64,000 nucleotides of DNA, from contig RPFO01001309.1 in the NCBI GenBank assembly GCA_009746045.1, positions 2,501-66,500 of the forward strand. The letters are read 5' to 3'. Origin of the DNA: Mesostigma viride. Taxonomy: Eukaryota; Streptophyta; Mesostigmatophyceae; Mesostigmatales; Mesostigmataceae. This document shows, in pieces, positions 1,678 to 35,800 of this stretch (its first letter is position 1; every line of letters begins with the position of its first letter). Below the pieces are notes generated by a model. That model saw nothing but the letters and a program-made list of their open reading frames with translations. It had not been told where the DNA came from and ran no database searches. The position numbers and the translations under genes are program-made.

Positions 1678-4600
1678 TTACTTCCCTGACAAATCAATCA
1701 GCTGCTGGACCACGGACGGATCTGCCAGCGTGCTTATGTCCCCTGTAGCAAAATCAACCCACCACAGAATGGAACCGGCCATGTCAGTGTTGATGAAAAC
1801 TACAAATTCTTGAGATCCTTTTGACCTTCATGCACAGGCGCGTGATGGGAACATGGCGAGAAAGCAACCGATAGGATCGATGGGCATGGCATGTACGCAT
1901 GGGGGCAAGTGGGCAGGGGACGATGGCAAAGGATAATTTTCGGAAGTCGACTTTCGGTTAGTGAGGTCGTTAAGTGCTAATGGCAATAATGAAAATCAAT
2001 GTTGTTTTATTCTTAGACCCATACTGGGCAGTTCCGGTATCAACATTTTCGTCACGTACCTAATTACCCCGCAGCGTTTAGGGTTTTCCTCCCATGCGTA
2101 CCTCTCTTCCACACCCCTAACTCCCCTCGCTCGTGCCCTGCCATGTTCGAAGCCCTCTGCACCTGCCATCCTTTCCCCTCCCTCCCAAGCCCCCCTCCCT
2201 CATCCCTCCTCCACCCACCCATATTCCCACCCACCACGATTGTCTGACCATAGCACGAGCCCAAATAGCAAAGAACATTTCCAATAATTACAACCAGAAA
2301 GACCCCTGCCACTGGCATGCCAGCATCCTCAGGGAAGCCACTGAGTTGTTGAAAGACATGGCCAAGGGCTAAAAGGCATGACCATTAGGGCCACAGTCCA
2401 CAGGTGCGTTCCTACTACTAGTGCGTTAACGGATCCTGATAGCATTTCCAAAAGTCATCGTTACTTACCGCTCTGATCATTGGGAGCCCTCCACCCGCCC
2501 CATCAAACTTGCAAAAAGATCTTTCGAGGCTATCCCCTCCCACCATATCCTCACAACCCTGGACATCTGATTGTACCAAAGGCCGCCCTCTGTACCAAGG
2601 GGGGTGCTGCCGCGCCCTTCGTGAGGAAAGCATGGAATCTGGCACCTAAAGCGATGTCCAGAAGAAGGATCGGGGAGCGTATGTGCCAACACAGGTACAC
2701 GAGAACGCAAGTGTAGGTAGCATCGCGCTCGAGGCAGGGCAAGGGCATGAATCCCCCGCGCCACGTACCCAATGTCTCCAGGTCCTGGTTTGCAATCTTC
2801 CGCAGGATGCGACGCATGATCTTGCCCGATCGCTGCACGAACAGACCAGGTGGTCAGCAGTGCACCCAAGTGGGGGGGAGAAACAAATGCCGTCCAGGCA
2901 GTGCCACAGTTAAGAGACGTGAGGCAAGGGATAGGAATGCAGGTGTGCTGCTGCTAGCTACAACACCAGCACATGATGATGCAAGGAAGCCATGCCATCA
3001 GTGGGCAGCACGCGGTGCAGGGTCCACCACCCGAGAAGCAACCACAAGCACTCCCACGCAACCGCACCACAAAAAAGACAGGACACATGGCGTTCTTATG
3101 TCTGCAACAGCAAGGGGACAGGGCCAGGTCTACCACCAGATTGTAGACGCGCCGGTGGCTCAAAAGATACCGCGGTGGCATGTTTCACGTGCGCAGCAGC
3201 CATACTGGCTCGGAGGCATGTCGGGCACCCTGCGGATGCTTCAGGGGCAAGTGGCCATGCGCCGAAGGCAGGTCATGTCAACGGCTAGTTTTATTGGCAC
3301 ACCCTCCACCAGACGCAGCACATCTGGGTATTTGCCATTAAGTTCAACACAACAAACAGAAAAGCATGCCACTGATTAGACTTGGAAATGAACAAGTGCA
3401 ACTTTTAATACACAAACCAGCCAGTTGCACCATGACGTTCCTAGCATGCCATTGGTGGCTTTGCATGCAGGCGCGCGTGCCCCAGCTGGCATGTGTCGAT
3501 TATCAGCGGCAACGCACTGTATGTGCATGTCTGTGTGTTTGCGTCTGTGTGTGTGCATGTGTCAGCCGTTGCTTGCACGGCATGCGTGCTGTACGCGCGC
3601 ACCGTCTTGGGCATGGCGGGCGCCCAGTGGATCACGTCTGGCATCGCGAACGCGCCGATGCCTGTGCGCACGGCCATCTTCAGCTGCTGGCGGATGTCCT
3701 CGCTCGCGGGGATGCTGCGCACATGCACAAGGGAGCATATGCACAGAGGGCGCACATGCACAAGGGCGCACATGCTCAACCATGCACAGAGAGCGCACAT
3801 GCACAAGGGCAAACATGCACAGAGGGCGCACATGCACAGAGGGCGAACATGCGCAGACATGCATAGAGGGCGCACATCCACAGACATGCATAGAGGGCAC
3901 ATACGGACACCCACAGCAGAGGGCAGGTGATGCCACGCACATATGCCGGCGGCCACGGCATGCAACCATCAAGGGATCGTAGACGCACACGCAGGCACGC
4001 CACCTATGCACCGCAGGGCCATACGAAACCGTGTGTCCTTTCCCTGTGGCTTAAATGGATCAGCAAGAGTCACTAGCCAAGGAATTTTGACATGACGCCT
4101 CGTGCATTGTACGAGACATCCATTTGTGAGGACGCACAGCAACCTGGGGGTGCCTCCCCTTGGATGCGCCTTTCTACCCCCATTGTGCAGCCCACGCCTC
4201 CACCCCTGTTGGCGTTGGTGCCGCAAGGGGAAGCTTGGAACCTGCCTCTTGCTGGATACTTTCAAGGGGCTACGGGTGTTCGTAGCCATGTGCCCGTACG
4301 GCGAGTTTGTCAAGGGGCAATCTCTGGATAATGAGAACGGGCCACGGGCCATTGTAGAGACATGCGCCCCAGGGAAGGAGACATAGTCTTGCCGCCACAG
4401 TCACCGCTGCCCTGTTGCTAGGCACCCTCGGAACGAGCTTGTTGCGATGGCGTACAAGCCACACTGCTACTAGCAGTGGTGGCTGTCTGGGACTGCCCAA
4501 TATACTACGATTTTGTGCAGCGAAAATTTTGCGCTTCCGCAAACTGTTGCCACGTGCGAGTAGCGTGCCGCGGTGACCGCGATTGGGGGGTCGACTGTAG

Positions 4601-7600: not shown

Positions 7601-10600
7601 TTCTCAACTCCGTTCATCAATGTCAATGAATTTATAGAACCAAACGATAGTTCAACTTCAACTTGCAACCATGCTCAAGATGCCATCAAGGTCGTTGCTC
7701 ATGATGTTAGGGCCGCTCAACCGGGCAAGGGCACTTTTCGACAATCAGGTCTAGATGCAGCTCTTGAAGACTGGAAACACGTTCATTGTCGTTTCGGAAC
7801 AAGAATACATCTATTAATATACGACCAAACGATAGTTCAAACTTGAAGTGGCAATCATGCTCAAAAAGCCATCAACGTTGCAACAATGTCGTTTACAATT
7901 ATGTAAAGGCTCAACCCGTCAAAGGAGCCTTCGAAATTGCGCTCTTTAACTCTTGGGATATAACATTATGGCTTCCTTTATTGCACTGGTCACGCCTTTA
8001 CAATCCCACTCAACCACCATCATCCTTTCGGATAGGTCCGTTCATTGAGATACCTAACCGGAAACGGCCAAGTGTCTTAGCATAACACCATGGTATTAGA
8101 ATGGTGGCTACATCCTCAATTCCTAACTGAGCCAGGGCGCTCATCGCCTCCCTTTTAACCTGAGAGTAAACTTGGCTTTGCTCGCTTCACCGGAGATCTG
8201 CCACAGGGCAGGGGGGTGGTTACTCTGTACCGTGAATTGATACCATTTTACCTAACGAAGAGAAAGACGGCGCACTTTTATGGCTGAGAGACCACCCCGC
8301 AAAGCTGATCCCATTTTCCAAAGACCCCGTCGCGCTGCGTACTTTATGGCTGAGAAGCAAGACTCGAAGCTTCGGAATGGCTGTGGTCGCTGGCAAACGT
8401 AACCCGCACACTGTTTTGGAATGGCTGTGGTTGTTGGCGAGACGTATACCGCGGACTGTTCGGGAATGGCTGTGCTTGCTGGCGAGACCTAAACCGCTCG
8501 GGAGTGGGGAGCGACATACAAGGCCCACGCTCGACAAAGCACAGTCGACAATCTGTTGATCTGTGCCCTGTATGCAGACAGTTGGAAGAGGCTCATGCTC
8601 CTGTGGCAGCTCAGAAATGTGGGGGCAGTCCGGGATTGGGTCGGGCACGACTTTGGGACTTGGGCTCCAAGTACTGGAAAAAGGGACCATCAGATGCTAG
8701 GTTTGAAACTGACCACGATTTACAAAGTCGTCGATAGTCTAGTGTAGAAAGTTATGCGGTACGGCATTCACTCCAACGGACAATGTTCACTCAAGTTGCT
8801 TGGCCGGACTTGGGCTCCAAGAACTAGAAAAAGGGACCAATAGATGCTAGGTTTGAAACTGACCACGATTTACAAAGTCGTCGATAGTCTAGTGTAGAAA
8901 GTTATGCGGTACGGCATTCACTCCAACGGACAATGTTCACTCAAGTTGCATGGCCGGACTTGGGCTCCAAGAACTAGAAAAAGGGACCAATATATGCTAG
9001 GTTTGAAACTGACCACGATTTACAAAGTCGTCGATAGTCTAGTGTAGAAAGTTATGCGGTACGGCATTCACTCCAACGGACAATGTTCACTCAAGTTGCT
9101 TGGCCGGACTGGAAAGTTTGCTCGCGTTTCGTGGGACCTTAACGTGCACACATTCCATAGGCGGTTATCGTAGACTAGATAACATGCCCGGCCGGAGACT
9201 GGCCACAACCGCCGGAGAGGCACAGAATCGGTTAGCAGCGGGGGCTCGTGAGCAAGGCCCCTGTACTTGTCACAAACGCTCCGGTTGAAGATAAAACATG
9301 AGAAACATATCCCAGGGACCGTCGCCATCCATCGCAAGCTGCCAGGTGACATGGTCGAGCGAAACCACGTGCGATGGAAGTAGGCTAAACGGCGATGGAA
9401 GTAGGCTAAAGGTGCGATGGGAGAAGGCTCAACGTGCGATGGGAGAAGGCTAAACGTGTGATGGGAGAAGGCTAATGGAAGTAGGCTAATGAAAGTAGTA
9501 CTACCGCTGTCTACATAGGTGGAAGGTCTGCGTAATGTACATCAAGGCAAGTGCTTAACCGCCTGCAGAGCTCCAAAGATGCCCAAACCATTGCCCAGTG
9601 ACCAAAGGTCTGCTTGAAACGATGCGCAGCGGGGCACGCACCCTTCCATGAGCGACACAAAGGCGTAGATGCCTTGCCCCTTGACAGGGTGCTCGTAGCC
9701 CACCACCGCCGCCTGCACGTAGTGCGCCGCCACCACACACACAGCAGGCACAGGATGAAATAGGCCAGTGAGATAGCAGGACTAGAACAATTGTAAAAGA
9801 CAGCCGCACGACAGGCAAATCACCGGAGACACGGCTGCATGGCGGGGGATAGCGGATGGCTAACGCCAGCGCCATGTGCCAACCGCAGCAATGTGGGCAA
9901 GCGCAAACCCTCAATGCCCTATGCTAAGACCCGCACCCCTCAAAGCCCAGGGAGCAACCACCTTGGCCTCTCTCACCCACACAAAGCAGGTGGGACATGT
10001 CTGCCATGGGCTCACACCACATGGCTTGGACGCTGACAGCAGTGCTCCCCCCCCCCCCCGGAATGGTGATCCGGGACCTGATGTGGTCATAAAGGGTGAC
10101 ATCCGATGGCTCACCCCTGTCCTTGATGGCAGAAGACCGGGTCACGATACTGGGGTCACTTTACTGTCTACACCCGCTCCGCTAGCCAACACCTGGTCCA
10201 CCGCCAGGTACGCATCCAAGGACGCATCGCATGAGCGGTGAGGGATGTGTGCGCATGAGCGGTGAGGGCGCGCAGGAAGCCACGCGGCCACGCAACCAAA
10301 AGGATGGGGGAAGCACGCGGCTGCCCCGTGACAAGGCCAGGCATGAAACTGGAACGTGGGGCGGGCACGCACACAGAAAGGATGGGCCGCGCCTGGCTTC
10401 GCTGCAGACACCCCATCCAGCAGCAAGGTGGACTGCTCCGGGCCCATCCTACATGATGGCCTGTTTCCAAGCTCTTGTGTATTTGGCCGTGCGTGAGCTC
10501 ATCGCCCGGCTCTGTGGGACCCACCTCGGCGCAGCTTTGGGTACATTGCCCGGCACAGGTGTGTGGGACCCACCTCGGCACAGGTTTCATCTGCCACCAG

Positions 10601-13600
10601 TGCGCTCTCCACCTCCGCAGTGCCGATGCGATGGCCGCTGGCATACGCAAGCAACAGACCATAGAGATGCAGGTGGGTTGGCGTGGGTGAACAAGCGCAC
10701 AAGTGTTTGTAACGATGCTACGCGGTGGCCGCTGCCCGCACGTGGCGCGCACAGACAACAACGGTGGCAAACAAGGTTGCAAGGGCAGGGAAGGTCTCCA
10801 TGACCCAGGGCATGCCACGGACACGAGGGACAAGGGTAAGAAAGGCGCAAAGTCGACGCGCTCAGCAGACCGTGACGGAGGCCAGCCAGGCCGTGAACCC
10901 GCCAACGAGGGCATCGCACACCCACTCTGCCCGTTGCCATCAAAGGCTGTCCATATCGCACTCCCTGATGGCACATCTGCTTCCACTGGAGATGTCACCC
11001 AAGCAGTGTGCGCATCGCTCGCCCCAGCCCCATGTGCCTCGCGAACAGCCCCACGTGACGGCCCGTACGGCTCCGCATGCGTGCATCTTGTCCGCACAGG
11101 CACTGCGCGCCAAGAGCATGAGCACGAGCAACTGGCAGTTGATGACGCCATCGACGCACGTACCTGACGTTGATGACATCATCGACGCGTCCAGTGACCC
11201 AGTAGTAGCCGTCCTTGTCCCGCCGGGCGCCGTCCCCTGTGAAGTAGAAGCCTTTGTATGGCTCAAAGTACGTGGCCTCAAACCGGCGGTGGTCTCCCGC
11301 CACGGTGCGCATGGCAGAGGGCCACGCGCGCTTGATGGCAAGGTAACCCTCGCACTCGCCCTGCGCCAGGGGTACGCGGGCAGGGAATGACGCAATGCGC
11401 ACGGTGTGCACGCGTGGCAGGTCCATGCAGAACGTGAGGTGGGCGGTGGGTAGCAGCGAGGAGGGGTGGGCGGTGGGTAGCAGCGAGGAGGGGTGGGCGG
11501 TGGGTAGCAGCGAGGAGGGGTGGGCGGTGGGTAGCAGCGAGGAGGGGTGGGCGGTGGGTAGCAGCGAGGAGGGGTGGGCGGTGGGTAGCAGCGAGGAGGG
11601 GTGGGCGGTGGGTAGCAGCGAGGAGGGGTGGGCGGTGGGTAGCAGCGAGGAGGGGTGGGCGGTGGGTAGCAGCGAGGAGGGGTGGGCGGTGGGTAGCAGC
11701 GAGGAGGGGTGGGCGGTGGGTAGCAGCGAGGAGGGGTGGGCGGTGGGTAGCAGCGAGGAGGGGTGGGCGGTGGGTAGCAGCAAGGAGGGGTGGGCGGTGG
11801 GTAGCAGCGAGGAGGGGTGGACGGTGGGTAGCAGTAAAGAGGGGTGGGCGGTGGGTAGCAGCGAGGAGGGGTGGGCGGTGGGTAGCAGCGAGGAGGGGTG
11901 GGCGGTGGGTAGCAGCGAGGAGGGGTGGGCGGTGGGTAGCAGCCAGGAGGGGTGGGCGGTGGGTAGCAGCGAGGAGCGGTGGGCGGTGGGTAGCGGTGAG
12001 TAGGGGTGGGCGGTGGGTAGCAGCGAGGAGGGGTGGGTGGTGGGTAGCAGCGAGGAGGGGTGGGCGGTGGGCAACGGTGAGGAGGGCGACAAGGACGCGT
12101 GGCAGCTGGTGCATGAACTACCGGAAGCAACAGAATGCAGCAGGCAGCACAGGCATCGACAATGCACGAGCAGCTGGGCCTTTTGTGCCACACGGCAACA
12201 GCACATGGACCAGATAGCGAGCGTACCATGTTTGACAACGCTTGTATGCCCACAACAGCAAGCATGAGATGACAGATGCCAGTTGTGAGCGCAGAATGAT
12301 GCGCGAGGCGAGGCAGCAAAGGTCGCAGGAGGGTTCCAGGGCCAATGCAAGCAGCTCTGCAGCCCCAGGGCCACTTTGTGGAAACTGCCAGGGACACCAA
12401 GTCAGGGGGCCACAGCCCAGAGGCAATGCCATGAGATTGTAAACCTCGTGACCACTCCGAAGTGTAGGCAAGTGGAATGTAGGCAAGAGTGCAGGTGCCC
12501 ACACGATTGGGCACAGCCCCGTTCACATTCTCTCCCTGCCTCCTCCAGGCACACGCGTCACCGCCACATATCTCTCGTGTCATACCGCACGTGCGACAGG
12601 CACATGCCCATATGTGAGACAGGCACATGCCCACGGCGCGCAGGCCACCGACGGCGTGACATAAGGCGAGCGGCGAGGCAGAATAACAAGGCATCGCTCA
12701 CCGGCTGCTCCTCGCCCTTGTCGTTCAAGATCGCTACCTCCACGCCAAAGAACGGGAAGCACGCGGAGCCTGGCTTGAGGGGGGTGGCTCCCGGCAGGGG
12801 CGTCAACTGCCACGTGACGACCAGGTGTGATACAGTTGCGGCAGGGGAGTTGCAAATGAGCCAAAAATGTGCAGCTAGTATAGGATAACAGAATAGAAGG
12901 TTGGCCAGAAAGAATGGCATTTGGTGGCCGGAAAGGTGCAGCTTGTGCTGCTCAGGCATCTTCTGTCACTGTCCCAGTGCACGCCTCCTTGATATACCGT
13001 AATGCACATCGTACTCATGCACTCATGGCATCCACATGGATCCCGCCGCTGTTCTTCATAGTTCTGTCCGCCACCAGGTGTCCCCACCACCCCACGCACT
13101 CGCGCCGACCAACACAGCGCCCCCGCTAGCGCACGCACCAGGATGGATCCCGTCTCGGTCTGCCACCAGGTGTCCACGATCGGGCAGCGGTCGTGGCCAA
13201 TGTGGTGGTGGTACCACCTGCGCGCATGGAGGGGGCGGGGCAGGTCGCATCAAAGGGGCCTGTGTCAGACTGCCACAGCAGCTACAGCCGCGTGGGCTGG
13301 CCCTGCCTGCTCACCTTTCATGCATCCATGCATGGCTCACCATAGCCATGGACATCAGACGTAGCATAACATAGGTCACAAGGGCAATGCCATAGAGGAG
13401 CGTCTATGCCAACTAGAACCGCATCGGCCCACTTTGGCCTCAACGATGCAGCAACCGATGCTGTTGCTGTCTCGTGCACAACCCACCTGGTGAATACCAG
13501 CCCAAGTTACAATATGGTTCATTCCACTGGTGGCTCAAGTTGGTGCCAACCAACTGAGGGCTTGTAAAAGCTCTTACAGCGTGCATCTGAGAATACAATA

Positions 13601-16600
13601 AAAATAGAAAATTTTATGACAAAAAAGAAGTGTACCGATCAATGGGACTAGAAAAAATCTATGGATGATTACACACGAGGCCTCATAGATCCATGCTACT
13701 AAATGGCTGCATGCTTCAATAGCGCACACACCTCCATGCCTCCGGGTTGATGGGCTCCCATTTAGGAGTAGCGCATGTACACTGTAGCCACACTATGCCC
13801 CGCCTCACCTCCATGCCTCCGGGTTGATGGGCTCGCCCACGCTACCCAGCAGGCGCAGGGTGTTGAGCTTGTAGTGGGCGGGCCACTGGGGGCGGGTGGC
13901 GGGCACAGTGGGATGTTTGCGGGAGGACCACAAACGCATAGCATCACGCACGTGGGAGTATCCAGCTCAGTGCAGATGACTTGCTGCACACAAAAGGAGA
14001 GTGCGAGATGCTGGATGGTTGAAGAGCGCACCTGCGGATGCAAGCACAACCTCCATGCATGCCAAGAACACAGCTCACATCTGTCAAGCTGACAAGGGTT
14101 GACAGATAACAGCTGTCAACCCTTCCCTAGCCAAGCAGAGAGCTTGGCCAGGGCAGGTCTGCCCTGCGTTTGCTGCACTAGGGGGGAGATGCACGCATTT
14201 CCCGCTGGAATATCCGCTGTTTTACATGGGATGTGGCAGAATTATTCTGTTGACTACTTCAGGCCATGCTTCCATTGAGAGACAAATGAGCAGTTGGGCA
14301 CTCCATGAGCTTATGATTAACGTCTGAAAACTAGTATGCTATACATCTTCATACAAATATCAAGTTCTTAGGCTAGTTCGTGTACATCAAAGTTTCATGT
14401 TGACCTAACCAGCTGCTAACACCACAGACATGGTCAGTTTCCTGTGTGTTCTGGTTGGGAGGGATTCGGGCGGTTCGGATTAGGCTGTGAACGTTTTTTC
14501 GGGATAAAGAATTCTTAACGGCCGAATGGGGGGGGTCCGGGGAGGAGAATGCTGGCCATTCTTTCTGGGCAATACAATCTGGTAGCAGGATTTCTGTCAT
14601 GATTTTGATCCTTCCCTCAGCATTCTTACAAAACTGGGTCACCGCCTTTTGTGACGAAACCCAGGCAAGAATGGCAGCTGATGGCCCTGGGCAACTAAGC
14701 CTCAGCCTAAAAGTACCATACAAGCTACCACTGTACCAAAGTATTGCTCATGCAGTGCGCCCCCAACGCAGCCAAGCTAGTCAGCATCAGATAACACGCA
14801 CTTAGTGAAATGTGGACAGGGCCAAGCCACAGATCCAATCACCTACATCGCCTAGTAGGGGTATAAAGATATATCTAGTTGGGGTATAAAGCAAAGCAAA
14901 GATACAGATTCTGCAAACTCATGATACAGCTCAGCGGCTTCAGATAAAATAACCATCTTTGAAACCTCTGAATTCACCCGAAAAAGCCTTTCAAAGCTTC
15001 TTGTCCCTAGGTTGATGCCCAATCAATTTATAAGTTAGAGATAAGTCAGTTAGAAGTTAGTCGCAGTAATCTATTTCAAGGGGTGCCTTTCTTTTTTTTA
15101 AAAAAAAAGTGCTAGAATTTATTGGGGCGTCCAATCCTGCTTTCATCCTGCGACCATATCTTCACATTACTATAATCAATATCCTTGGGTAATAATTGGC
15201 TCAAAGAAATCATACTTGACTTGCCGTAGTTGCTTGGCTTGAGTTGAACAAAAGGAGGTTAAATGAAAAAATTACTTTTAATTGTCCCAAATTTGCGAGC
15301 AGCCATAGAAATAATTATGAGAAGTATAAAATATTTTTCTTATTTTTCTTAATACCCACTCGCCTAGCACACTACAGTTCCTGGATTTTTTCCCCCATTA
15401 TTAAAGCCCCCTGCGTTTTATCTCTGTACCCCTTTTCATAGACAAGTGCGCATCCTTCCTTCCTCTTAAGCGCCTCCATGCTGTTTTCATGATCTGCAGC
15501 GCCACACCCCCCGGTCTTCCTTCCACACACCCCGGTCTTCCTTCGCAGAATTTAAAACTACTTCTCGAACAGCTTTAAGATCGCTTCCTACAGCCTCCTT
15601 TTCTCCGTGTCTGCATTCACATATGGTCAGAAAGTCTCATGGCTTTAACCATCGGCAGCATCCACTTAGCAGACATGCATTTCGCTGCTCGCTTCTCTTT
15701 TAAGGTCCTCCGGCTGCTAGCAAAGCTTTGTGAAATATACTTGAACATCCCGATGCCTACTACCCATTGTCTACCGCGCCCATCCCCCTGCCTATCACCC
15801 ATTCGTTAGCCCAGTACATCACCGTTCAAAATATCTTCACCGACTGTTTACCCCAAACCTTACTCATAGGCCATCACATTACATTTATCCTGAAAGAAGA
15901 ATGGACATTGGGCCCACATCAGGGAAGCCACGGGGCCCACCCGTGACCAGCACATGCGGCAGCGCACAGCAGAGGCACGCTCGCTGTTCATACCCGCCAC
16001 ACGCTCCTATACCTGTTTGCAAGTGCATCACACACACCTGTTTTCCCATGCGCTGCATGCACCTATATGTTTACGCAAGTAGCATCCCTGCAGATAGCAC
16101 CCACACAACTATTCTCCCCTGCAGATTTTATCGCCCGCACATGCACCCACGTACTTGCCCCTGCAACCATCAACCCTGCAGATATTCCCACCCACACACC
16201 TCGTTGCCCATGCGCATGAGCGCGCGAATGGCGGTGGGCGCCGTGTAGAAGATTGTGACCCCGTACTTGTCGCACACCTGCCAGAAGCGGCCTGCGTCCG
16301 GGTGCGTGGGGATGCCCTCAAACACCACCTGCGTGGCGCCGGCCAGCAGAGGGCCGTACGCCAGGTAGCTGTGGCCCGTCACCCAGCCGCAGTCCGCCGT
16401 GCACCTGCGGGCAGCACCAGGCAACGCCGATGGGAACAACGGACGAGGTAAGCGGCCGCACCGAGCAAGGCAGCACCAGGCACCGCCGATGGGAACAACG
16501 GACTAGGTAGGCGGCCGCACCGAGCAAGGCAGCACCAGGCACCGCCAATGGGAACAACGGACGAGGTAGGCGGCCGCACCAAGCAAGGCAGCACCAGGCA

Positions 16601-19600
16601 CCGCCGATGGGAACAACCGCACCGAGCAAGGCAGCACCAGGCCCCGCCGATGGGAACAACGGACGAGGTAGGCGGCCGCACCGAGCAAGGCAGCACAAGG
16701 CACCGGCGATGGGAACAACGGACAAGGTAGGCGGCCACACCGAGCAAGGCAGCACCAGGCACCGCCGATGGGAACAACGGACAAGGTAGGCGGCCGCACC
16801 GAGCAAGGCAGCACCAGGCACCGCCGAGGGGAACAACGGACGAGGTAGGCGGCCGCACCGAGCAAGGCAGCACCAGGCACCGCCGATGGGAACAACGGAC
16901 TAGGTAGGCGGCCGCACCGAGCAAGGCAGCACCAGGCACCGCCGATGGGAACAACGGACGAGGTAGGCGGCCGCACCGAGCAAGGCAGCACCAGGCACCG
17001 CCGATGGGAACAACGGACGAGGCAGGCGGCCGCACCGAGCAAGGCAGCACCAGGCACCGCCGATGGGAACAACGGACTAGGTAGGCGGCCGCACCGAGCA
17101 AGGCAGCACCAGGCACCGCCGATGGGAACAACGGACGAGGTAGGCGGCCGCACCCAGCAGGGCAGCACCAGGCACCGCCGATGGGAACAACAGACTAGAT
17201 ACGCGGCCGCACCGAGCAAGGCAAGAAAGCACATGGCCTAGCCGTTGAGAAGCGCCACCCCGAAGGTACCATAAGTAGCCTGACTAGCCAGCGTCTGTGG
17301 GTTGGGATGCGCATAAACCGCGCCATCGTCGCGGTGCCAGCGAGGGGAAGCAACGCGGCATGCGCTCTTGGTCTCTGCCAGGGGTCGAGCGGATCGGTTG
17401 GACGCAACGGTGTCCCAAAAAAGACAAGCGGCGCGACGACGCGCACAGCCGACATGGGTCGCGAGTGCATAGGTTTCAACCGCCACCAGTAGCTGGGTTG
17501 CCTGAGTATGTGACATACCAGAGAGCATGCCACCGTGCACAGGTCTGTGCAAACTTGCATGGAGTATTCCAACTTTAAAAGGCACACACACGGCAGTTGG
17601 CCAAGGAATTCTGCATTACAGCCTTGGCACATGGCACATAACACAACCTTGCTTGGCCCCAACACAGAACATCCACAGGATCTCACCAGTAGGCTGCCCT
17701 TGCTTTAACGAATGCAGAAAGGTGTATTTGAACAGCATCCACCACCAACAAGCACAAAGAAAGGGTGAAACATCAACAGGCGTAACGCCAGCCGCCACCC
17801 ACCAGAAGATGTCCCCCTCGTGGTAGTCAAAGATGTACTTGAATGAGGTATAGGCTCCGACCATGTAGCCGCCCGTGGTGTGGACCACCCCCTTGGGCTG
17901 GCCGGTGCTGCCGCTGGTGTAGAGCATGAACAGCTCGTCCTCGGAGCCCATCCACTCCACCTGGTGAGGGGCGCAAGCAACCAGCACCATGGTCATAGAT
18001 ATACTAAGACAACTCCCCTCCACCTGGTGAAGGGGCGCAAGCAACCACCACCATGGTCATAGATACACTAAGACAACTCCCCTCCACCTGACACGGTTCA
18101 GACGTGCACACAAGGGGCAATAAACCAGCCGCAAAGTGCCTTGGTTTGATATGGGGAAACAACAGAGCCCTTGCAGAGGGCGCACATGCGCTGGGTAGGG
18201 TATGCACTAGGGACAGGGGCACAGGATCGCCAACCCCGTGCTGGCAAGCGGACGGCAGACAGCCACGATGCCTAGCATAGCAGCAGCCTGCAAATAGAAT
18301 GACTCAGGCTCATACCCAGGCAGGTCTCATTGGAAAGTTAGGAGGCAGGCATGCGAAGATGGTGGCGGCAGCCATGATTACCATCTTGCAGAGCGGTTCA
18401 GTTCCCGGGCTTCCACCTCCCATCCGTGCACGAGGGCAGGCTGGGAGACATGCCCACGCATGCTTGGCAGACAGAGGGGAGCAACCCCACCATCTGAAGA
18501 GCTGGGAACAACGGCTGCTGCTCCGCAGGCTTGCCCATTACACAATAGGTACAGCGGCTGCATCCAAGCATGTCCGCAAAGGCACGCTGCACCCCACTTT
18601 CTTTCCTGCCCCCCGTACCTCGCAATCGCTGGAGAAGTTCTCCACTGTGTCCTGCCACCACACGTCACGCCCGCTGGTGAAGGGCACAGCTTGCCTCTGC
18701 CACGCCCCGCACGCATGGGGCAAGAGAAAACAACGCAGACAGGCATGAACAGGCATAAACAGGAATACACAGGCATAAACAGGCATAAACAGGCATAAAC
18801 AGGCATTAACAGGCATTAACAGGCATTAACAGGCATTAACAGGCATTAACAGGCATTAACAGGCATAAACAGGAATACACAGGCATAAACAGGCATAAAC
18901 AGGCATTAACAGGCATAAACAGGAATACACAGGCATAAACAGGCATAAACAGGCATAAACAGGCATAAACAGGCATAAACAGGCATTAACAGGCATAAAC
19001 AGGCATAAACAGGCATAAACAGGCATTAACAGGCATAAACAGGCATAAACAGGCATTAACAGGCATAAACAGGCATAAACAGGCATAAACAGGCATAAAC
19101 AGGCATAAACAGGCATAAACAGGCATTAACAGGCATTAACAGGCATAAACAGGCATTAACAGGCATTAACAGGCATAAACAGGCATAAACAGGCATTAAC
19201 AGGCATAAACAGGCATACACAGGCATAAACAGGCATAAACAGGCATTAACAGGCATTAACAGGCATACACAGGCATAAACAGGCATAAACAGGCATACAC
19301 AGGCATAAACAGGCATAAACAGGCATAAACAGGCATAAACAGGCATAAACAGGCATAAACAGGCATAAACAGGCATAAACAGGCATAAACAGGCATAAAC
19401 AGGCATAAACAGGCATAAACAGGCATAAACAGGCATTAACAGGCATAAACAGGCATAAACAGGCATAAACAGGCATAAACAGGCATTAACAGGCATAAAC
19501 AGGAATACACAGGCATAAACACGCATAAACAGGCATAAACAGGCATAAACAGGCATAAACAGGCATAAACAGGCATAAACAGGCATAAACAGGCATAAAC

Positions 19601-22600
19601 AGGCATTAACAGGCATAAACAGGCATAAACAGGCATAAACAGGCATAAACAGGCATAAACAGGCATGAACAGGCATAAACAGGCATAAACAGGCATAAAC
19701 AGGCATAAACAGGCATAAACAGGCATAAACAGGCATAAACAGGCATTAACAGGCATAAACAGGCATAAACAGGCATAAACAGGCATAAACAGGCATAAAC
19801 AGGCATAAACAGGCATAAACAGGCATTAACAGGCATTAACAGGCATTAACAGGCATAAACAGGCAGAAACAGGCATAAACAGGCATAAACGGGCATAAAC
19901 AGGCATAAACAGGCACAGACGGGCACAGGCGGGCAGAAACGGGCACAACATGTCAACTGAGTCCTGCAGCAGAGGGGCCGGATGCCAAACAGCCAGCACA
20001 CCAGCACATTTTGGGAGGGCGCACCATCGCGGGATGGATCGGGAACGATCCTACCATCACAAAACCGGGCAATGGCATTGCAGAAGATTCGAGGGGCATG
20101 AACCGGGTTAGGACAATTCTTCCATGCAGCGTGCTACCATGGGCACTTATCCGTGGGGGCAGCCACAAGCTACATGCGGGGCAGGGTGGCATCCGCGGCA
20201 TGGCGGGCAGCGGTGTGTGGGAACAGGGGACGGGGAAGGAGTGCGCAGGCAGGCAAGGCCAGGCGTAGCCATCCCACCACGAGGCAGCGCTCGCCCAGCG
20301 TGATAGGTGCGCGCGCCCTTCAAGTCAGGCCCCGCGAGTTCCTGGCGATGAACAGCTTTGGTAGGGGACAACACGTGGCCACGTCAACACAAGGGATGCC
20401 CGGCGGCACAGCGGTGCCTGAGCCAGACCGCGGTGGATCGTGTGGCAAGCCTAACATGGGACGCAGAACATCCCTGGCCGCACCTCCAGGGAGTAGGTGT
20501 TGTCGAACATGCAGACATGGGAGACGTGCACGCCGCCCTTTTCCGCTGCACGGATGGCAGAGTCCACCTGCAGGGGGGGGGGGGGGGCGAACATGCAGGG
20601 GCAAGGCAAGCCAAAGACGACGCAGCGGCTTGGTACGTCGCACATGAGGCGACCGCACCATCACGCAAAGGCACACGACAAGCGGGCTGAGAGAACGAAA
20701 GCTGGTACAGTGGCTGGAGGGAGCATGTTGGAGGCGTTAGCGTATGCGAGCTGCATCATGTAATGGACGCCTCGATAGCTGCGACGCGCGAGGTGTGCGC
20801 TGCCCATGCAACCCGATGCACGCTCCTCCCCCTCCCCCCTCCCACACACGGGCAGCATTTTCGGACGCTGCATGTCCGGGCCTGCTCACCCCTGTGGGCA
20901 TGCGACACTGCGGGCATGACATGGCCATGCTATTGTGACCATGCATTGCACACTTGGGAGTGAGCAGAGTTCAGGTGAAAGGTAGGTCTACCGAAAGCAT
21001 CCACTGCTACCACCCGCAGCACCACCCACAAACTGCCTGTGCTCACTACCACTCAGAATCTTCCTGCGCTCACTACCACCCACAAAATGCCTGCGCTCAC
21101 TACCACCCACAAACTGCCTGCGCTCGCGACCACCAACAAAATGCCTGCGCTCACTACCACCCACAAAATGCCTGCGCTCACTACCACCCACAAAATGCCT
21201 GCGCTCACTACCACCCACAAACTGCCTGCGCTCACTACCACCCACAAACTGCCTGCGCTCACTTGCACTTACAATCTCCTTGAGCTTGATCAGCGTCTTC
21301 CCCCGCATGACGGCGGAGCAGGTGAGCACAACGCGCGAGCGGGAGTCCTTGATACGCCCGGCCAGCGCCTCGGCAGAGAACCCCGCAAACACAACCGAGT
21401 GCACCGCGCCTGGGCGTGGAACAAAAGGGAGGGGTGGACAGGTGGGTGTGGGTGTGTGGGCACGGTTTAGGACATGCGCGCAAACACGGCCGAGTGCACC
21501 GCGCCTGGTGAAAACAAGAAAGGGAATCAGCAGCACAACACAGTTGGGCATGCCAGCACGGCCAGACAGCGCATGCATGCGTAAACCAGGCAGCCGACAG
21601 GTGACGGCTTGCGTGGTGGCCACACGCAGCGATGGCATCGCATGCGATCACATTTGGTGCAGATGGGCATGCGCCAAGCACCACAGCGAGGTGGGAGCAG
21701 GAACAGTGTTTCCAGCGCTGCCATGCTGCAGGCCGCCGCCGCGCATCCTGCTTACCCTTGCGTGCGACCTAGCATGATGCCTGTTATACTGGGAACATGC
21801 CCTGCTTGCCGCCATGCATTGATGCGGTTCGCACATCAGCGTCAGGGTGGGCAGCCACCCCAAGCGCTGGCGAGGGCAAGGGGATTGGTGTGTGGGGGGG
21901 GGGCACGCACACAGGAATGTGTGCGCGTGTTCGCTATAGAGTTCACTGTAGCGAAGCAACAACAGTACCCAGCCACCCACCGATGCGTGCGCAGGCCAGC
22001 ATGGCGCAGCAACAACAGTACACAGCCACCCACCCATGCGTGCGCAGGCCAGCATGGCGCAGCAACAACAGTACACAGCCACCCACCGATGCGTGCGCAG
22101 GCCAGCATGGCGCAGCAACAACAGTACACAGCCACCCACCGATGCGTGCGCAGGCCAGCATGGCGCAGCAACAACAGTACACAGCCACCCACCGATGCGT
22201 GCGCAGGCCAGCATGGCGCAGCAACAACAGTACCCAGCCACCCACCGATGCGTGCGCAGGCCAGCATGGCGCAGCAACAACAGTACACAGCCACCCACCG
22301 ATGCGTGCGCAGGCCAGCATGGCGCATCAACAACAGTACCCAGCCACCCACCGATGCGTGCGCAGGCCAGCATGGCGCAGCACCAACAGTACACAGCCAC
22401 CCACCGATGCGTGCGCAGGCCAGCATGGCGCATCAACAACAATACACAGCCACCCACCCATGCGTGCGCAGGCCAGCATGGCGCAGCAACAACAGTACCC
22501 AGCCACCCACCGATGCGTGCGCAGGCCAGCATGGCGCAGCAACAACAGTACACAGCCACCCACCCATGCGTGCGCAGGCCAGCATGGCGCATGAACAACA

Positions 22601-25524
22601 GTACACAGCCACCCACCGATGCGTGCGCAGGCCAGCATGGCGCATCAACAACAGTACACAGCCACCCACCGATGCGTGCGCAGGCCAGCATGGCGGCCGG
22701 TAACTCGGGCAGCATGGGCATGTAGAGGGTCACGCGGTCGCCCCGCCCCACCCCCACCGACTTTAGGTAGTTGGCAATGCGGCACACCTGGCAGGGAGTG
22801 TGGGCCAGCACACGGGACACCCAGGGTCAATGGGCCGGCCAGTGGGCGAGGTGGCGCACCTGGCAGCGAGCACGCAGGCATCTGCCCAAGTGAGGAATCT
22901 AGGGATTAGGGCAGACCATCCTGGCCAGGGGAGGAGGAGAGGAGGGGAGGAGGGGAGGAGGGGAGGAGGGGAGGAGGGGAGGAGGGGAGGAGGGGAGGAG
23001 GGAGGAGGAGGGGAGGAGGGGAGGAGGGAGGAGGGGAGGAGGGGAGGAGGGGAGGAGGGGAGGAGGGGAGGAGGGGAGGAGGGGAGGAGGGGAGGAGGGA
23101 GGAGGGAGGAGGGGAGGAGGGGAGGAGGGGAGGAGGGGAGGAGGGGAGGAGGGGAGGAGGGGAGGAGGGGAGGAGGGAGGAGGGGAGGAGGAGGAGGGGA
23201 GGAGGGGAGGAGGGGAGGAGGGAGGAGGGGAGGAGGAGGAGGGAGGAGGGGAGGAGGGGAGGAGGGGAGGAGGGAGGAGGGGAGGAGGGGAGGAGGAGGG
23301 GAGGAGGGGAGGAGGGGAGGAGGGGAGGAGGGGAGGAGGAGGAGGGAGGAGGAGGAGGGAGGAGGGGAGGAGGGGAGGAGGGGAGGAGGAGAGGGAGGAG
23401 GGAGGAGGGGAGGAGGGGAGGAGGGGAGGAGGGGAGGAAGGGCCGAGGGGAGGAAGGGCCGAGGGAGGAAGGGCCGAGGGGAGGAAGGGCCAAGGGGAGG
23501 AGGGGAGGAAGGGCCGAGGGGAGGAAGGGCCGAGGGAGGAGGGCCGAGGGGAGGAAGGGCCGAGGGGAGGAAGGGCCGAGGGAGGAAGGGCCGAGGGGAG
23601 GAGGGGAGGAGGGGAGGAGGGGAGGAGGGGAGGAAGGGCCGAGGGGAGGAAGGGCCGAGGGGAGGAAGGGCCAAGGGGAGGAGGGGAGGAAGGGCCGAGG
23701 GGAGGAAGGGCCGAGGGGAGGAGGGGCCGAGGGGAGGAAGGGCCAAGGGGAGGAAGGGCCGAGGGGAGGAGGGGAGGAGGGGAGGAAGGGCCGAGGGGAG
23801 GAGGGGAGGAGGGGAGGAAGGGCCAAGGGGAGGAGGGGAGGAGGGGAACAGGACACAGCACAGGTAGCACGCTTGGCATGCAGAGGGATGAGGGGTCACG
23901 TGTCGCCACGTGTCATGCAACCGTGCGCATCAGTAAACATTCTTAAGAATGGGGATGTGAGCGTGGGAGTTGATGGTGGTCCCACAAGGCGCAGAGCCAC
24001 CCGCTGGAACAGTTGGCACAGGAGAAGGCACACTGCACAGAGCCACCCGCTGAATACATGCTATGAGAGAAGGCACGGCAGACTATTGGGTTATGTCGCC
24101 CGTACGGCAGGCAATTGATACAGTTGCGCCCACTGGACAAGGAAGGAGGCGAAACTAGAATCACGCGGGGCAGAAGGCGCCCGCACAACACAGTGCGTGT
24201 CATGTGGGCGTGGCACACCATGCTATACCCACGGCATCCACGACACCGCGAAAATGGCAGTGGAGGCTTGAACGTGTCATTACCACCTAACTAGCGGGTC
24301 CCTGTTGGTAACGGAGATGTTGCATCATAGCTGGTAAATCAAGTTTCACAGAAAGCTCACAAATGGTGTTCTTGCAAACGTCCTGACCATGCCATCTGCA
24401 CTGCCCCCCCACAGGCCTGCCAACCTAGGCAGCCTCACCATCGCTATTTCTAAAGTATGGAAAGCCACTCTTGCCCCTTGGACTCGCCAGCAGTCATCGG
24501 GGTCTCTATGACAAGCAGGCAAGTGCAGGCGGGCTACCCGGGACCACGTAGCGTGCGGCACACACATGAGAACCAGCGAAGAGCCAAGGCCCTCAACGGA
24601 TAAGAAGGCGAACACGCATGGGATGTCCTGTCCTCCAATATTAACGGTTCAGCCTAGGAAAGCACTGGCTTTCTCAACCTACCCTCTGTACCACGTGCTA
24701 AACCAACCTTTTTACAACGCCACAGCAGCCTGGCCTTTTTGCTACACTACACTAGACCACGTGCGTCCAGGCACCTATCGTCGCCGCACCTGAACGGAAA
24801 CACATCTCTATTAACGCACCCCTAAAGCACGCTGTCGTTTAGAACCCACACACATAGCATAAGAAAGAGGTTTCAGTGGGTATGAGACCATAGAAATGCG
24901 CCACGGCTCGTTACAGGGGGGTCGCATAAAGGCCGCATACCACACGATGCCCGAATGTGCAGGGAAAAGAAGCATTGCAACGTACCTTAGCAAGCAACTC
25001 CTTGTAGGTAAGGGAGCTGGCATTGCCGATGTCGTTGCCCTCCCAGAAAATTGCTGTCTTGTCTCCGTTGCCAGCCGCAACGTGCCGGTCCAAGGCATTG
25101 TAGCAGATGTTTGTCTCGCCGCCAGGGAACCACTTCACAAAAATCGGGCCTTTGCTCATATCAAAATTCGAAGAAGTGATCGGGGACTGCATGTGTGAAA
25201 AGTCGCGAGAAGAAACCTCAGTGTGGAGGTACTTGAGGAACAAGAATGAAAATGCAGCTACTGAACCAAGATGCACACCCTAAGATGCGCACGTTATATA
25301 CAGCACTTCACGTACGGATTGTAAATTGGACCTTATATGCAAGGCAGACTTACGCAGAAAGGCTGTTTCCAGTAAAAGCTCTTGGCAATTTCGCTCCAGA
25401 AGGTCTCAGGATCGTCGATAGACTGGCGGTACATTTCGGTGTACTGTTCCATGGATTTCACATGTGCTGCGGCGGAAACCGCGGGCGGCGGCTTGTACAA
25501 TTCTCGATGCGTGGCGGACACCAT
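1678..25524 (-). CDS. ACS: Acetyl-CoA synthetase (AMP-forming), 17 exons
   Basis: The product joins acetate, ATP and CoA into acetyl-CoA, AMP and PPi. Exons in transcript order: 25524-25354, 25186-24986, 22787-22670, 21409-21273, 20567-20484, 18696-18619, 17960-17803, 16404-16200, 13885-13809, 13217-13139, 12806-12702, 11360-11164, 10637-10574, 9712-9642, 3714-3603, 2832-2769, 1742-1678. They total 1986 nt, are in phase throughout, and every intron is GT-AG. The 661 residues match the family length (E. coli Acs has 652). Visible motifs: AMP-binding loop [11 protein letters not shown] (exon 7), DTWWQTETG of the acetate/AMP pocket (exon 10), [10 protein letters not shown] (exon 12), and [11 protein letters not shown] with the acetylatable catalytic Lys split across exons 15/16. 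ATG at 25524 is the first Met in frame. No signal or transit peptide is evident, so a cytosolic enzyme is likely, but an upstream targeting exon cannot be excluded. Introns reach 5.9 kb and carry duplicated splice junctions. Confidence 0.95.
3716..3903. repeat. Degenerate ~17-19-bp repeats abutting the intron 14 acceptor
   Basis: About ten imperfect units of GCGCACATGCACAAGGG begin directly at the 3' splice site of ACS intron 14. On the coding strand each unit copies the last intron bases before the AG (TGTGCATGTGCGC), so the array looks like an expansion of the acceptor region. Confidence 0.75.
4638..4730. repeat. 32-bp direct repeats followed by an 18-G run
   Basis: About 2.3 copies of a 32-bp unit beginning TCGTCAAACGGTTGACTATT end in an uninterrupted run of 18 G (4713-4730), inside ACS intron 14. 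Confidence 0.8.
6153..6604. mobile_element. TA-flanked MITE with 33-bp inverted ends
   Basis: A 452-bp element starts CCGTAGTGGTCAAAATC and ends with the reverse complement. About 33 bp match perfectly at the two ends, which are flanked by TA on both sides, as expected for Tc1/mariner-type (Stowaway-like) MITEs. The interior holds repeated TTTGGGTCGCAAA blocks and no transposase frame. It lies within ACS intron 14. Confidence 0.85.
8374..8505. repeat. ~47-bp imperfect tandem repeat, 3 copies
   Basis: Three tandem units start GGAATGGCTGTG and continue through GCTGGC(G/A)A(A/G)AC. They lie within ACS intron 14 and have no coding role. Confidence 0.75.
8661..9110. repeat. 150-bp tandem repeat, 3 copies
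   Basis: Three nearly identical 150-bp units begin TGGGCTCCAAG at 8661, 8811 and 8961. They are separated by few substitutions, which suggests recent amplification. They lie inside ACS intron 14. Confidence 0.92.
9370..9495. repeat. ~21-bp imperfect minisatellite
   Basis: Variants of GCGATGG(A/G)AG(T/A)AGGCTAAAC are repeated about six times in ACS intron 14, about 150 bp downstream of exon 14 in the transcript. Confidence 0.75.
10513..10586. repeat. Duplicated exon 13 end plus 5' splice site
   Basis: The junction at 10562-10586 (exon 13 ends at 10574, donor GTGGGT) has a second copy at 10513-10537 inside intron 13, 49 bp away, matching at 23 of 25 bases. The copy keeps the exon-like CCGAG followed by GTGGGTCCC. 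Confidence 0.85.
11138..11188. repeat. Duplicated exon 12 end in intron 12
   Basis: The final coding stretch of exon 12 (11169-11188, encoding part of the VDDVIN motif) is repeated at 11138-11157 just inside the intron, offset by 31 bp, with 18 of 20 bases matching. Confidence 0.8.
11436..12090. repeat. 27-bp minisatellite in ACS intron 11, ~24 copies
   Basis: The unit is GGGTGGGCGGTGGGTAGCAGCGAGGAG. Being a multiple of three and free of stops, it produces long artificial frames on both strands. I see no match to the neighbouring splice junctions. It ends about 75 bp before exon 12 in transcript direction. Confidence 0.95.
12594..12640. repeat. Short tandem duplication in intron 11
   Basis: GACAGGCACATGCCCA occurs twice in succession, about 22 bp apart, close to the 5' end of intron 11. 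Confidence 0.7.
13036..13176. repeat. Duplicated exon 10 segment in intron 10
   Basis: Exon 10 sequence at 13143-13176 (coding [10 protein letters not shown]) is repeated in diverged form at 13036-13084 inside intron 10. Two blocks match, ATGGATCCCG and CGCCACCAGGTGTCC, separated by an insertion in the intronic copy. Confidence 0.75.
13729..13834. repeat. Exact 29-bp duplication of the exon 9 donor junction
   Basis: The end of exon 9 (GEPINPEAW) with the first intron bases GTG, 13806-13834, is repeated without mismatch at 13729-13757 in intron 9, offset by 77 bp. After the copy the intron continues GTGTGTGCGC, so a second usable-looking donor exists. Use of that donor would add 77 nt and shift the frame. 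Confidence 0.93.
13886..16199. other. ACS intron 8, mostly unique AT-richer DNA
   Basis: The donor-proximal part (16086-16199) contains three diverged repeats of a GTGTGTGGGTG...TATCTGCAGGG pattern that starts at the splice site. The remaining 2.2 kb holds no recognised gene or mobile element; it is AT-richer than the exons and has scattered homopolymer runs. Confidence 0.6.
16411..17225. repeat. 59-bp minisatellite in ACS intron 7, ~14 copies
   Basis: Units of 59 bp contain GCACCAGGCACCGCCGATGG. The array abuts the intron 7 acceptor at 16405, and the last intron bases before the AG match the unit for about 30 bp, so the repeat includes acceptor-proximal sequence. One copy, near 16610, is internally shortened. 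Confidence 0.93.
17954..18090. repeat. 63-bp duplication of the exon 7 acceptor junction
   Basis: The true acceptor (CACCAG|GTGGAG, exon 7 starting at 17960) is followed upstream in the intron by a full second copy at offset 63 bp and a partial third copy at about 127 bp. Each copy retains CAG|GTGGAG, that is the AG plus six exon bases. Confidence 0.9.
18740..19950. repeat. 10-bp minisatellite in ACS intron 5, ~120 copies
   Basis: The consensus is AGGCATAAAC with AGGCATTAAC and AGGAATACAC variants scattered through it. The array lies just upstream of exon 6 in the transcript and reads as an artificial Met-Pro-Val-Tyr-Ala-Cys frame on the minus strand. Confidence 0.97.
20572..20587. repeat. 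G run, pyrimidine tract of ACS intron 4 acceptor
   Basis: A run of 16 G on the plus strand, C on the transcript, sits directly before the CTGCAG acceptor of exon 5 and likely serves as its polypyrimidine tract. Confidence 0.7.
21010..21268. repeat. 27-bp minisatellite starting at the intron 4 donor
   Basis: About ten units of GTAGTGAGCGCAGGCAGTTT plus GTGGGTG (coding strand) begin at the 5' splice site of intron 4. The true junction reads GTAAGTGCAAGTGAGCGCAGGCAG. Every unit therefore carries a GTGAGCG donor-like sequence. Confidence 0.9.
21384..21508. repeat. Duplicated exon 4 acceptor junction
   Basis: The acceptor and first 26 nt of exon 4 (21384-21413; codes GAVHSVVFA) are repeated upstream in intron 3 at 21479-21508, offset 95 bp, with two mismatches. 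The CAG|GCGCGG splice site is retained in the copy. Confidence 0.9.
21951..22680. repeat. 53-bp minisatellite made of exon 3 end plus donor, ~14 copies
   Basis: Each unit contains the last coding bases of exon 3 (MLACARIG) followed directly by the donor GTGGGTGGCTG and about 25 bp of intron. The copy at 22670 is the one that gives the conserved protein. The unit is not a multiple of three and has no stop in any frame of the minus strand, so all three frames read through the array. Confidence 0.95.
22779..22875. repeat. Duplicated exon 3 acceptor
   Basis: The acceptor CTGCCAG|GTGTGCC (exon 3 starting at 22787) has a diverged copy CTGCCAG|GTGCGCC at 22852-22875, about 73 bp upstream in intron 2. 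Confidence 0.65.
22922..23850. repeat. GGAGG-type purine tract in ACS intron 2
   Basis: About 930 bp of GAGGAGGGG variants are almost purely purine on the plus strand, with GGAAGGGCCGAG interspersed from about 23430 onward. The transcript strand is a C/U tract lying just upstream of the exon 3 acceptor. Long overlapping Pro/Leu/Ser or Gly/Glu/Arg frames here are composition artefacts. Confidence 0.97.
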
Positions 25525-29784: not shown

Positions 29785-30659
29785 GTGCAGCAGTCAGTGT
29801 AGCTATCCTTGTGAGTTCGCCAATTGCTCCAACGTTGCATGATCTCAAAATAAAACTGATCGTCTTGTAGAAGGATTTTATTGATGCGAGGGATGCCTGG
29901 GCCCCGTGGGGCCTGGGTGTGGTGGGCTAGCGTGACAATGCATGGGTAATGGTCTGAGAAGGCTGTGGAGCGTTCTACGCTGGCGTGGCAGACTAAATCG
30001 GCCCATTTGGGCGTGATATATATTTTATCCAAACGACGGGTTGTGCGAACGCCCAGACGAGTGGCCAGCCAAGTGTGCTCCTGATCCCGTGACCGAATGA
30101 CATCCTGCAAATTCAGGTCTAGAATGTGTTGGTAAAAGGAGGCTGTACGGTGGGCAGGGTGTTCGTTTAGATCAATGTTAAAATCCCCCATAAGTACTAT
30201 TTCTTGGCCGTTGGAGATGAGATCAGAAACCATTGCAAATATATGCTGGTAGAAAAGGTTTTGTTCAGCCGGCATATCTAGGGTCGGCGCATAGATGGTA
30301 ATGAGGTAGCCCTGGCTTCCCGCCCATGTTATAGATTGTCGTGTCCATCTGCCCTGCCATCTAGCCGGGGCTGTGTCTGCTTGTAATGTCCATGGCAGGT
30401 ATGTCATGGTTGGGTTAGGTGGTTTGCGGTATTGTATGAGTGCCGTTCCCCCTTGGGTACCCCGAGCCCATCCCCATTGGCATAGTGTTCTAGGTGCAAG
30501 TGCTCGGACCGCCCGGAGGGCGGTACGTTCTGCATCTATCTGAATTTTGTGTTCTTGCAGTCCAAGCCAAATCTCGTGAGAGGGACCAACATATTGATGT
30601 AGGAGGCTATCCAATTCTACTGTAAGTTCCCGGATGCGAGTCATGGTGCGGCCCTGTCC

Positions 30660-31638
30660 CAGTGTTTTTTTTAAGGTTTTCGTTACTAGTGGCGCTAGGC
30701 CACTTGTGGCGTTTCGAACTATGAAAACTTCAGTTTACTCGGCCAATGTGTGGCTTTAAGCCAATTAAAATTGGGCTTGGCACGGCCACGTGTGGCGGGC
30801 TGGCTTTTTGGTGCAGCAAATGACCCTACCGGCAGCGGGGTCAGCGCGGCGCGGCCGGGCGCCGTACTGGCATTCCAAGTTCAAAGTAGTTCAGAACAGT
30901 ATGTTTAATTATCTTAAGTTCAAACTAGTAGAATTTATTAGAATCATTCACGCCTTAAGTTGGGTTCACGCCTGAAGTTGGGTTGACCAAAAACCTCGAA
31001 CCCAACTTAAGGCGTGAATGCCTGTACACAAGGCGGGCGAGCGTCTCCGTCTCAGGCATCGGCGCCGGGCGTACTTGGTAAATTAACAACAACGATTACC
31101 ACTACAGCCACTGCTTAACAAAACGATTACTGAAGTGCCGAAAGTCGAAACACATAGTCAATGCAATGCAGTACAGTACTGTATGGCTGGCGAGTGACTG
31201 GAACTGAGGCGCCAGCCGCCAGGCCGCCAGCCAGCTGAAGCCAGAAAATGCACACAAGCTGCAGTCTGCACAGTGCACTCTGGTCTCTGGCAGCGGGCCA
31301 CTTGCCACTTGGCACTTGGCCGGGCTCTACGTACATGCACTATGCAGTCAGTAAGTCAGTCAGTCATAGTAATACTCATAGTAGTTCTAGTACTAGGGAG
31401 GCTTGTGGCGGAACGCCGGCCGGAAGACCGGCTGACACCGCCAATTGTGGCGTAGCCTGTACTAGAGTGAACTTCAGGCACGGCCACCCTGTGGCGAAAC
31501 GAAACTACAAAGTAGAACAGCACGGCCAAATTGTGGCTTCTTGGGTGCCCTGTCCAAGTGGGTGGCACCGCCACATTTTGCCAAAAAAAGTGCCACACCG
31601 CCACATTTGGCGGTGTATCGCCACTAAAAAAAACACTG
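30660..31638. mobile_element. Non-autonomous hAT-like element (979 bp)
   Basis: The ends are inverted repeats CAGTGTTTTTTTTA, flanked by a perfect 8-bp duplication CCCTGTCC (30652-30659 and 31639-31646). An 8-bp duplication and CAGTG ends are typical of the hAT superfamily. The interior has no transposase frame; it has repeated GTGGCG/CGCCAC motifs near both ends and a large hairpin. Confidence 0.93.
30945..31020. repeat. 23-bp-arm hairpin inside the hAT-like element
   Basis: CATTCACGCCTTAAGTTGGG plus TTC at 30945-30967 is perfectly inverted at 30998-31020 around a 30-nt loop. Confidence 0.9.
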
Positions 31639-35345: not shown

Positions 35346-35357
35346 ATCAAGGAGACA

Positions 35358-35800
35358 ACCGGATCCTGCTTGCCGACGCGCCGCCGATTCCTGAGTGGCA
35401 GCACAGCTACCGTATTATGCTGTACAAAAACAAAGGTTCCCCTGACGACCCCGCCAACTACAGAGGAGTGTGCATCCAGAGCGCCGCGCTCAAGTTGTTC
35501 ATGCGCATGATCCTCAACCGCCTTCGTTCTGCTCTCGACTGTCATCTTGGGGAAAGTCAAATGGGCTTCCGTCCTGGGCGCAACACCGTCATGGCCATCT
35601 TCGTCGCGCGTCGCCTCTTCGAGGAAATCGCTCTCCTGCAACCTGGTGAGTTTCCCGCCATCCTGATCTTCGTCGACTTCATCAAGGCTTTTGATTCTGT
35701 CCTCTGGGACGCTCTATGGGCTGTACTTGCTCGCGCTCGCGTCCCCACTCCCCTGATTACCGTCATCCGCACGCTGTATGAGGGGTCCACCACTTCGGTG
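35358..35800 (+). pseudogene. LINE-A reverse transcriptase, part 1
   Basis: It codes the RT region from ILLADAPPIPEW through YRIMLYKNKG and FVDFIKAFDS to EGSTTSV. LINE-B then interrupts, and by chance the frame stays open into it, giving a misleading fused 557-codon frame from 35219 to 36892. Confidence 0.92.

Follow-up and report, generated by a model that had tools for sequence, protein, structure and literature searches.

Minisatellites that span intron-exon boundaries, termed "mirages", have been described in the lancelet genes for Adh3, globin (BflGb6/BflGb9), troponin C and PGBD5 (PMC3087553, PMC3902484); both reports cite a 2002 Adh paper for the original description. RT-PCR on the lancelet globin genes showed undisturbed splicing, and BflGb6 carried 6 units in one haplotype versus 3 in the other (PMC3087553, PMC3902484). 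A boundary-crossing tandem duplication is also known from the potato RdRp gene, where a new intron arose at the duplication (PMC4974935). Introner elements of Amoebophrya show direct repeats of 3-5 nt at exon-intron boundaries and introns with inverted repeats (PMC7789003), and a repair of DNA breaks that leaves direct repeats has been proposed for intron gain in Daphnia (PMC3443670). For Mesostigma viride, the published assembly of 441.8 Mb has a mean intron length of 1142 bp, with repeats occupying 30.1% of intron space (PMC6947507).

Here, we analyzed a window of 64,000 nucleotides from M. viride (contig RPFO01001309.1, hereafter C469, positions 2501-66500; assembly of 439.9 Mb in 2243 contigs). 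Telomere repeat of the CCCTAAA type fills the first 882 bases of the window, and its gene for acetyl-CoA synthetase (ACS) lies near a chromosome end. The exon-intron model of ACS was assembled by hand on the minus strand, with the start ATG at 25524 and the stop codon at 1678-1680. Its introns sum to ~21.9 kb versus 1986 coding bases. The protein aligns over residues 15-657 to a solved acetyl-CoA synthetase (2p2m; 798.5 bits), and the alignment is free of gaps at the copy-bearing introns. Judging from this match, the intact frame and the GT-AG introns, an earlier, sequence-only reading of the same DNA had identity, strand and coordinates of the gene right. Copies of splice junctions were scored by ungapped extension anchored at the junction, at offsets of 12-200 bp within the adjoining intron and with a cut-off of at least 12. 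By this measure, 11 of the 32 ACS junctions are closely copied in the intron next to them, versus 0.04-0.05 expected from 200 dinucleotide-preserving shuffles per intron, which bears out the boundary copies reported by the sequence-only reading. The gene and its junction-related features are the following (window positions).

1678..25524, minus strand: acetyl-CoA synthetase (ACS) gene; 17 exons, 16 GT-AG introns, intact 661-aa frame
22769..22870, minus strand: intron 2, acceptor duplicated at offset 72 (copy 22841-22870); match of 11 intron and 19 exon positions
21951..22695, minus strand: array at the intron 3 donor; 14 units of 53 bp, each with 26 exon and 27 intron bases
21384..21508, minus strand: intron 3, acceptor duplicated at offset 95 (copy 21479-21508); match of 4 intron and 26 exon positions
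21021..21286, minus strand: intron 4 array; 27-bp unit, ~9 units (21021-21263), similarity extending over the donor
17951..18090, minus strand: intron 6, acceptor duplicated at offsets 63/64; ~2.2 units, match covering 10 exon positions
16410..17223, minus strand: intron 7 array; 59-bp unit, stopping 5 bases short of the acceptor; ungapped match without exon bases
16031..16215, minus strand: intron 8 donor, weaker copy; offset 162, 16 exon and 7 intron positions
13729..13834, minus strand: intron 9, donor duplicated at offset 77; identity over 29 bp (26 exon, 3 intron)
13063..13175, minus strand: exon 10 bases copied into intron 10; offset 92, junction not included
11131..11188, minus strand: intron 12, donor duplicated at offset 31; match of 25 exon and 2 intron positions, weak decoy donor
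10513..10587, minus strand: intron 13, donor duplicated at offset 49; match of 14 exon and 12 intron positions, decoy scoring as the real donor
3717..3909, minus strand: intron 14 array; 17/33-bp units, stopping 2 bases short of the acceptor, without exon bases

Copies that carry exon bases are present at nine ACS junctions in 8 of the 16 introns (2, 3 at both ends, 4, 6, 8, 9, 12 and 13); including introns 7 and 14, the number of introns with a junction-related copy rises to 10. They match conserved exon sequence and sit on the intron side. The most extensive case is the donor of intron 3: the first unit of the array contains the real junction (22670/22669) and is one base off the consensus, and 13 further copies follow with the GT intact in all of them, giving 14 donors in a row that all read GTGGGT. 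MLACARIG, which 2p2m has in identical form, is encoded within this unit. At intron 4, the exon part of the copies is weak (score 4 over 14 bases), and at intron 9 the two copies are separated by 48 bp without similarity. The sequence-only reading had listed clear boundary copies in introns 3, 6, 9, 10, 12 and 13; all of these were recovered except intron 10, where exon sequence alone is copied and the junction copy is not significant against shuffled introns (P=0.085). Among the introns for which it had noted repeats of the splice-site region, introns 2, 4 and 8 indeed contain copied exon bases, while those of introns 7 and 14 are arrays near the acceptor. Its offsets of 31, 49, 53, 63, 77 and 95 bp were each found again.

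Arrays that contact no junction account for much of introns 2, 5 and 11. Intron 5 harbors a 10-bp array of ~118 copies (18739-19915) and intron 2 an 8-bp array of ~116 copies (22927-23847), neither of which touches a junction. Three near-identical units of 150 bp in intron 14 (8656-9110, 97% match) apparently stem from a recent duplication.

Our sample beyond ACS comprised two further genes, and all three lie on contig C469.

C469, 211.2-221.2 kb: CLC channel gene; 11 modelled introns
C469, 85.6-90.6 kb: DUF2252 gene; four modelled introns, Pfam match of 82.6 bits, partial protein

The best solved relative of the CLC product, queried without one small exon, is the chloride channel protein CLC-a (8iab; 596 bits), which we take to be a plant protein, from Arabidopsis. 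The same scan, which the sequence-only reading had proposed for other genes, was positive in both: exon-bearing copies are found at two CLC donors (introns 8 and 11; 2/11 introns) and copies of the donor in 2/4 DUF2252 introns. On its own, CLC shows little excess, as 2 of its 7 repeat events cross a junction versus 1.1 expected. At the last DUF2252 intron, a repeat of 869 bases begins inside the exon and is built from a 47-bp unit of mostly last exon bases followed by the donor. Approximately 18 further copies of this unit fill most of the 1051 intron bases and supply 17 extra donors within 1 of the real donor's score. The two exon-proximal copies differ while most inner copies are nearly identical, as is usual when minisatellites turn over. 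Our model of DUF2252 is incomplete; a small exon may be hidden in the intron at 89919-88807. A gene finder with ACS and CLC as training genes served as a guide and did not enter the counts; its first version, tested on these same genes, recovered 11/16 ACS and 9/11 CLC introns exactly. In a 20-kb piece of contig C1 we noted two weak gene predictions, which may be transposon-like. Just before the likely DUF2252 acceptor lies a long run of CAC/histidine-coding triplets (C469, ~90509-91157), and at 95341-103927 of the same contig 8.5 kb are open in three minus-strand frames, P/H-rich and probably one long tandem array.

The closest likeness is to the lancelet mirages. Both share tandem boundary-spanning repeats at either splice site (5' or 3'), unit lengths from tens of bases to ~160 bp and many intact splice signals (PMC3087553, PMC3902484). 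Structures of this kind are thus already described, although the sequence-only reading did not know the process as a described gene-wide pattern. Repeats with both exon and intron parts occur at ACS introns 3 and 6, weakly at intron 4, and at the DUF2252 intron; either boundary can be duplicated, and 10 donors and 3 acceptors have exon-bearing copies. Uniform inner units flanked by divergent boundary units, a further mirage trait, were seen in the DUF2252 array and not in ACS intron 3, and the conserved ACS protein is consistent with undisturbed normal splicing. In the portions of the lancelet reports at hand, however, mirages come from one animal group and affect one or two boundaries per gene, whereas here 8/16 introns of a single gene are affected, spaced non-tandem copies occur as well, and the genome has TTTAGGG telomere repeats. 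Moreover, lancelet splicing was checked by RT-PCR, while our copies are known from genomic sequence. The potato case likewise involves a tandem duplication across an intron-exon boundary in a green plant; its new intron uses the duplicated region, whereas the copies described here are known as sequence features. Introner elements of Amoebophrya share direct repeats at exon-intron boundaries, but those are 3-5 nt long with inverted repeats, in contrast to the local, exon-derived repeats in M. viride. Introners are marked by dispersal of one element through many genes; within our three genes, junction windows matched other introns no more than the 0.10 expected. The literature searched, in which subscription papers were mostly outside coverage and other sources were available in part, yielded no account of such boundary copies in a green alga.

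We consider it fairly probable that these introns lengthen partly by local, often tandem, duplication across splice junctions. A segment comprising an exon edge and the neighboring splice site would be copied into the intron, usually in tandem. The outermost copy would stay beside the intact frame, and we propose that the change is nearly neutral because use of this outermost site yields the conserved protein. Inner copies would be released from coding constraint, and some might then expand into minisatellites via slippage or unequal exchange, as in ACS introns 3 and 4 and the DUF2252 intron. The intron 3 donor and introns 4, 6, 12 and 13 of ACS, together with the last DUF2252 intron, look like tandem duplications that were partly expanded afterwards, whereas in ACS intron 9 and at the intron 3 acceptor, direct repeats seem to flank a piece of filler DNA. 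The sequence-only reading had suggested that introns grew by tandem duplication across splice sites. The copies fit local junction-crossing duplication, but intron 9 and the intron 3 acceptor are not simple tandem repeats, and many arrays touch no junction.

Chance similarity as the source of the copies was rejected on two controls. In the three genes pooled, 16 of 62 junctions score at least 12 versus 0.14 expected from shuffles. Junction windows tested against the flanks of other introns gave an expectation of 0.10 versus 14/62 for the own intron, where the target was cut to the intron piece only and therefore 14 instead of 16 junctions count. An equal rate in shuffled or unrelated introns, which the sequence-only reading had named as refuting its idea, was thus not observed. 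The score is reached at 10/31 donors and 6/31 acceptors. Exon bases are copied at 13/62 junctions (10 donors, 3 acceptors), the other three junctions with a score of at least 12, whose copies lack exon bases, being the acceptors of ACS introns 7 and 14 and of CLC intron 5.

The strongest alternative is an ordinary intronic minisatellite background, in which duplication occurs anywhere, selection cleans the exons, and junction copies are seen more often via their one conserved copy. We regard this as possible, with a probability clearly below that of junction-crossing duplication. Repeats found by TRF make up 26.5, 27.4 and 47% of the introns of the three genes and 16% of the contig outside them; with intron interiors also repeat-rich, duplication itself is thus general. 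Nearby copies exist for 28% of intron-interior positions in ACS (28-53% over the three genes), and since arrays also cover these interiors, the raw junction rate of 11/32 is not special by itself. The junction excess is visible only when clusters are treated as single events or when arrays are set aside. With a score of at least 16, 7 of 21 ACS repeat clusters cross a junction (3-45 exon bases) versus 1.5 at random placement (P=0.0005). Cluster counts depend on the chosen cut-off: 10/28 versus 2.09 at score 14, with one cluster of >45 exon bases excluded, 5/17 versus 1.18 at score 18 (P=0.005), and 5/16 versus 1.08 at score 20 (P=0.003). Pooled over the genes, with DUF2252 represented by its last two introns only, 10/30 clusters cross a junction versus 3.1 expected (P=0.0004). 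Outside TRF arrays, 12 of 58 junctions are copied versus 2.2 expected from interior GT/AG sites (P about 2e-6), interior positions in these statistics not being independent.

Part of this excess could be due to the exon-side copy decaying more slowly, because junction repeats remain visible for longer when selection holds one side of the copy. Junctions also exceed exon interiors, where 5 of 868 positions 50-120 nt from a junction have a copy in the nearby intron. If the expectation is doubled, the pooled events lose significance (P=0.09), as the background explanation would have it, and ACS events alone reach P=0.04; yet the excess outside arrays survives (P=0.002), and exon-bearing copies at 13 junctions also argue against the background explanation.

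As a second alternative, staggered breaks near junctions might have been repaired by fill-in and joining with filler DNA, so that direct repeats flank the insert. As a general account we find this unlikely; for intron 9 and the intron 3 acceptor it is a serious rival. In both, the match is far shorter than the offset (29 bp at 77 and 30 bp at 95), which fits a short direct repeat flanking filler, and the same holds for the length of the intron 2 acceptor repeat (30 bp at 72). Break repair leaves unexplained the arrays of about 9 to 19 units in ACS introns 4 and 3 and in DUF2252, as well as intron 12, whose match spans nearly the whole offset. Tandem duplication and break repair would both be routes to a copied junction.

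Could the copies instead be functional alternative splice sites or real exons? In favor of this, the 13 junctions have 45 exon-bearing copies, of which 43 keep GT or AG and 38 lie within 1 of the real site's score in small site matrices trained on the ACS and CLC sites, real sites included. The earlier expectation that intact decoy donors and acceptors are left behind thus holds. Furthermore, one minus-strand frame is open throughout the ACS intron 3 array (21651-22826), and offsets of 27, 63, 72 and 162 keep the frame. However, offsets of 31, 49, 53, 77 and 95 and the 47-bp unit shift it, and no copy is needed for the conserved ACS protein, which is given by the outermost site in every case. 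CLC and DUF2252 were modelled with outermost sites like ACS, and under these models only the outermost of the intron 3 and DUF2252 donors would give the conserved protein. We therefore rejected the copies as coding repeats, on the basis of the frame-shifting offsets and the conserved protein, and regard functional use as very unlikely. Most plausibly, the outermost site is the one that is spliced. The genes could serve as natural tests of splice-site choice, as the density of look-alikes raises the question of how the right site is picked.

Birth of introns by duplication of an AGGT-containing exon segment shares with our case the local duplication of sequence around AGGT, and several copied junctions read AG|GT. 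It predicts copies at both ends of a new intron, whereas the significant copies keep to one end of an intron that already exists, 27-162 bp away from the junction they duplicate; with entire ACS introns searched, the three best hits for each junction included no copy scoring at least 12 at the opposite boundary. We thus rejected this highly improbable explanation. Assembly error has an almost negligible probability: long arrays are difficult to assemble, but the diverged two-copy cases (introns 2, 12, 13 and CLC) are unlikely to be assembly repeats.

With junction-crossing duplication as the preferred reading, a much broader claim would be that in this lineage such copying is a main route of intron growth genome-wide and that the spliceosome reliably uses the outermost of many near-identical donors or acceptors. 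This we hold to be doubtful, though conceivable; if confirmed genome-wide, it would provide a countable mechanism for intron growth from the edges.

Beyond ACS, five of the ten long ORFs scanned in the window have a Pfam match, all of the retroelement kind.

26890-29793, minus strand: ORF with reverse transcriptase (RVT_1)
29664-30734: endonuclease-domain ORF, Pfam match just under the cut-off
35216-36889, plus strand: ORF with RVT_1
51916-56790, minus strand: Copia-type pol ORF
59097-62762, minus strand: ORF with RVT_1

Elsewhere in the assembly, AMP-binding domains occur in giant frames of 1927-5371 aa (L001-L008, contigs C2011 and C870) that look like non-ribosomal peptide synthetases, and these two contigs may come from bacteria in the culture.
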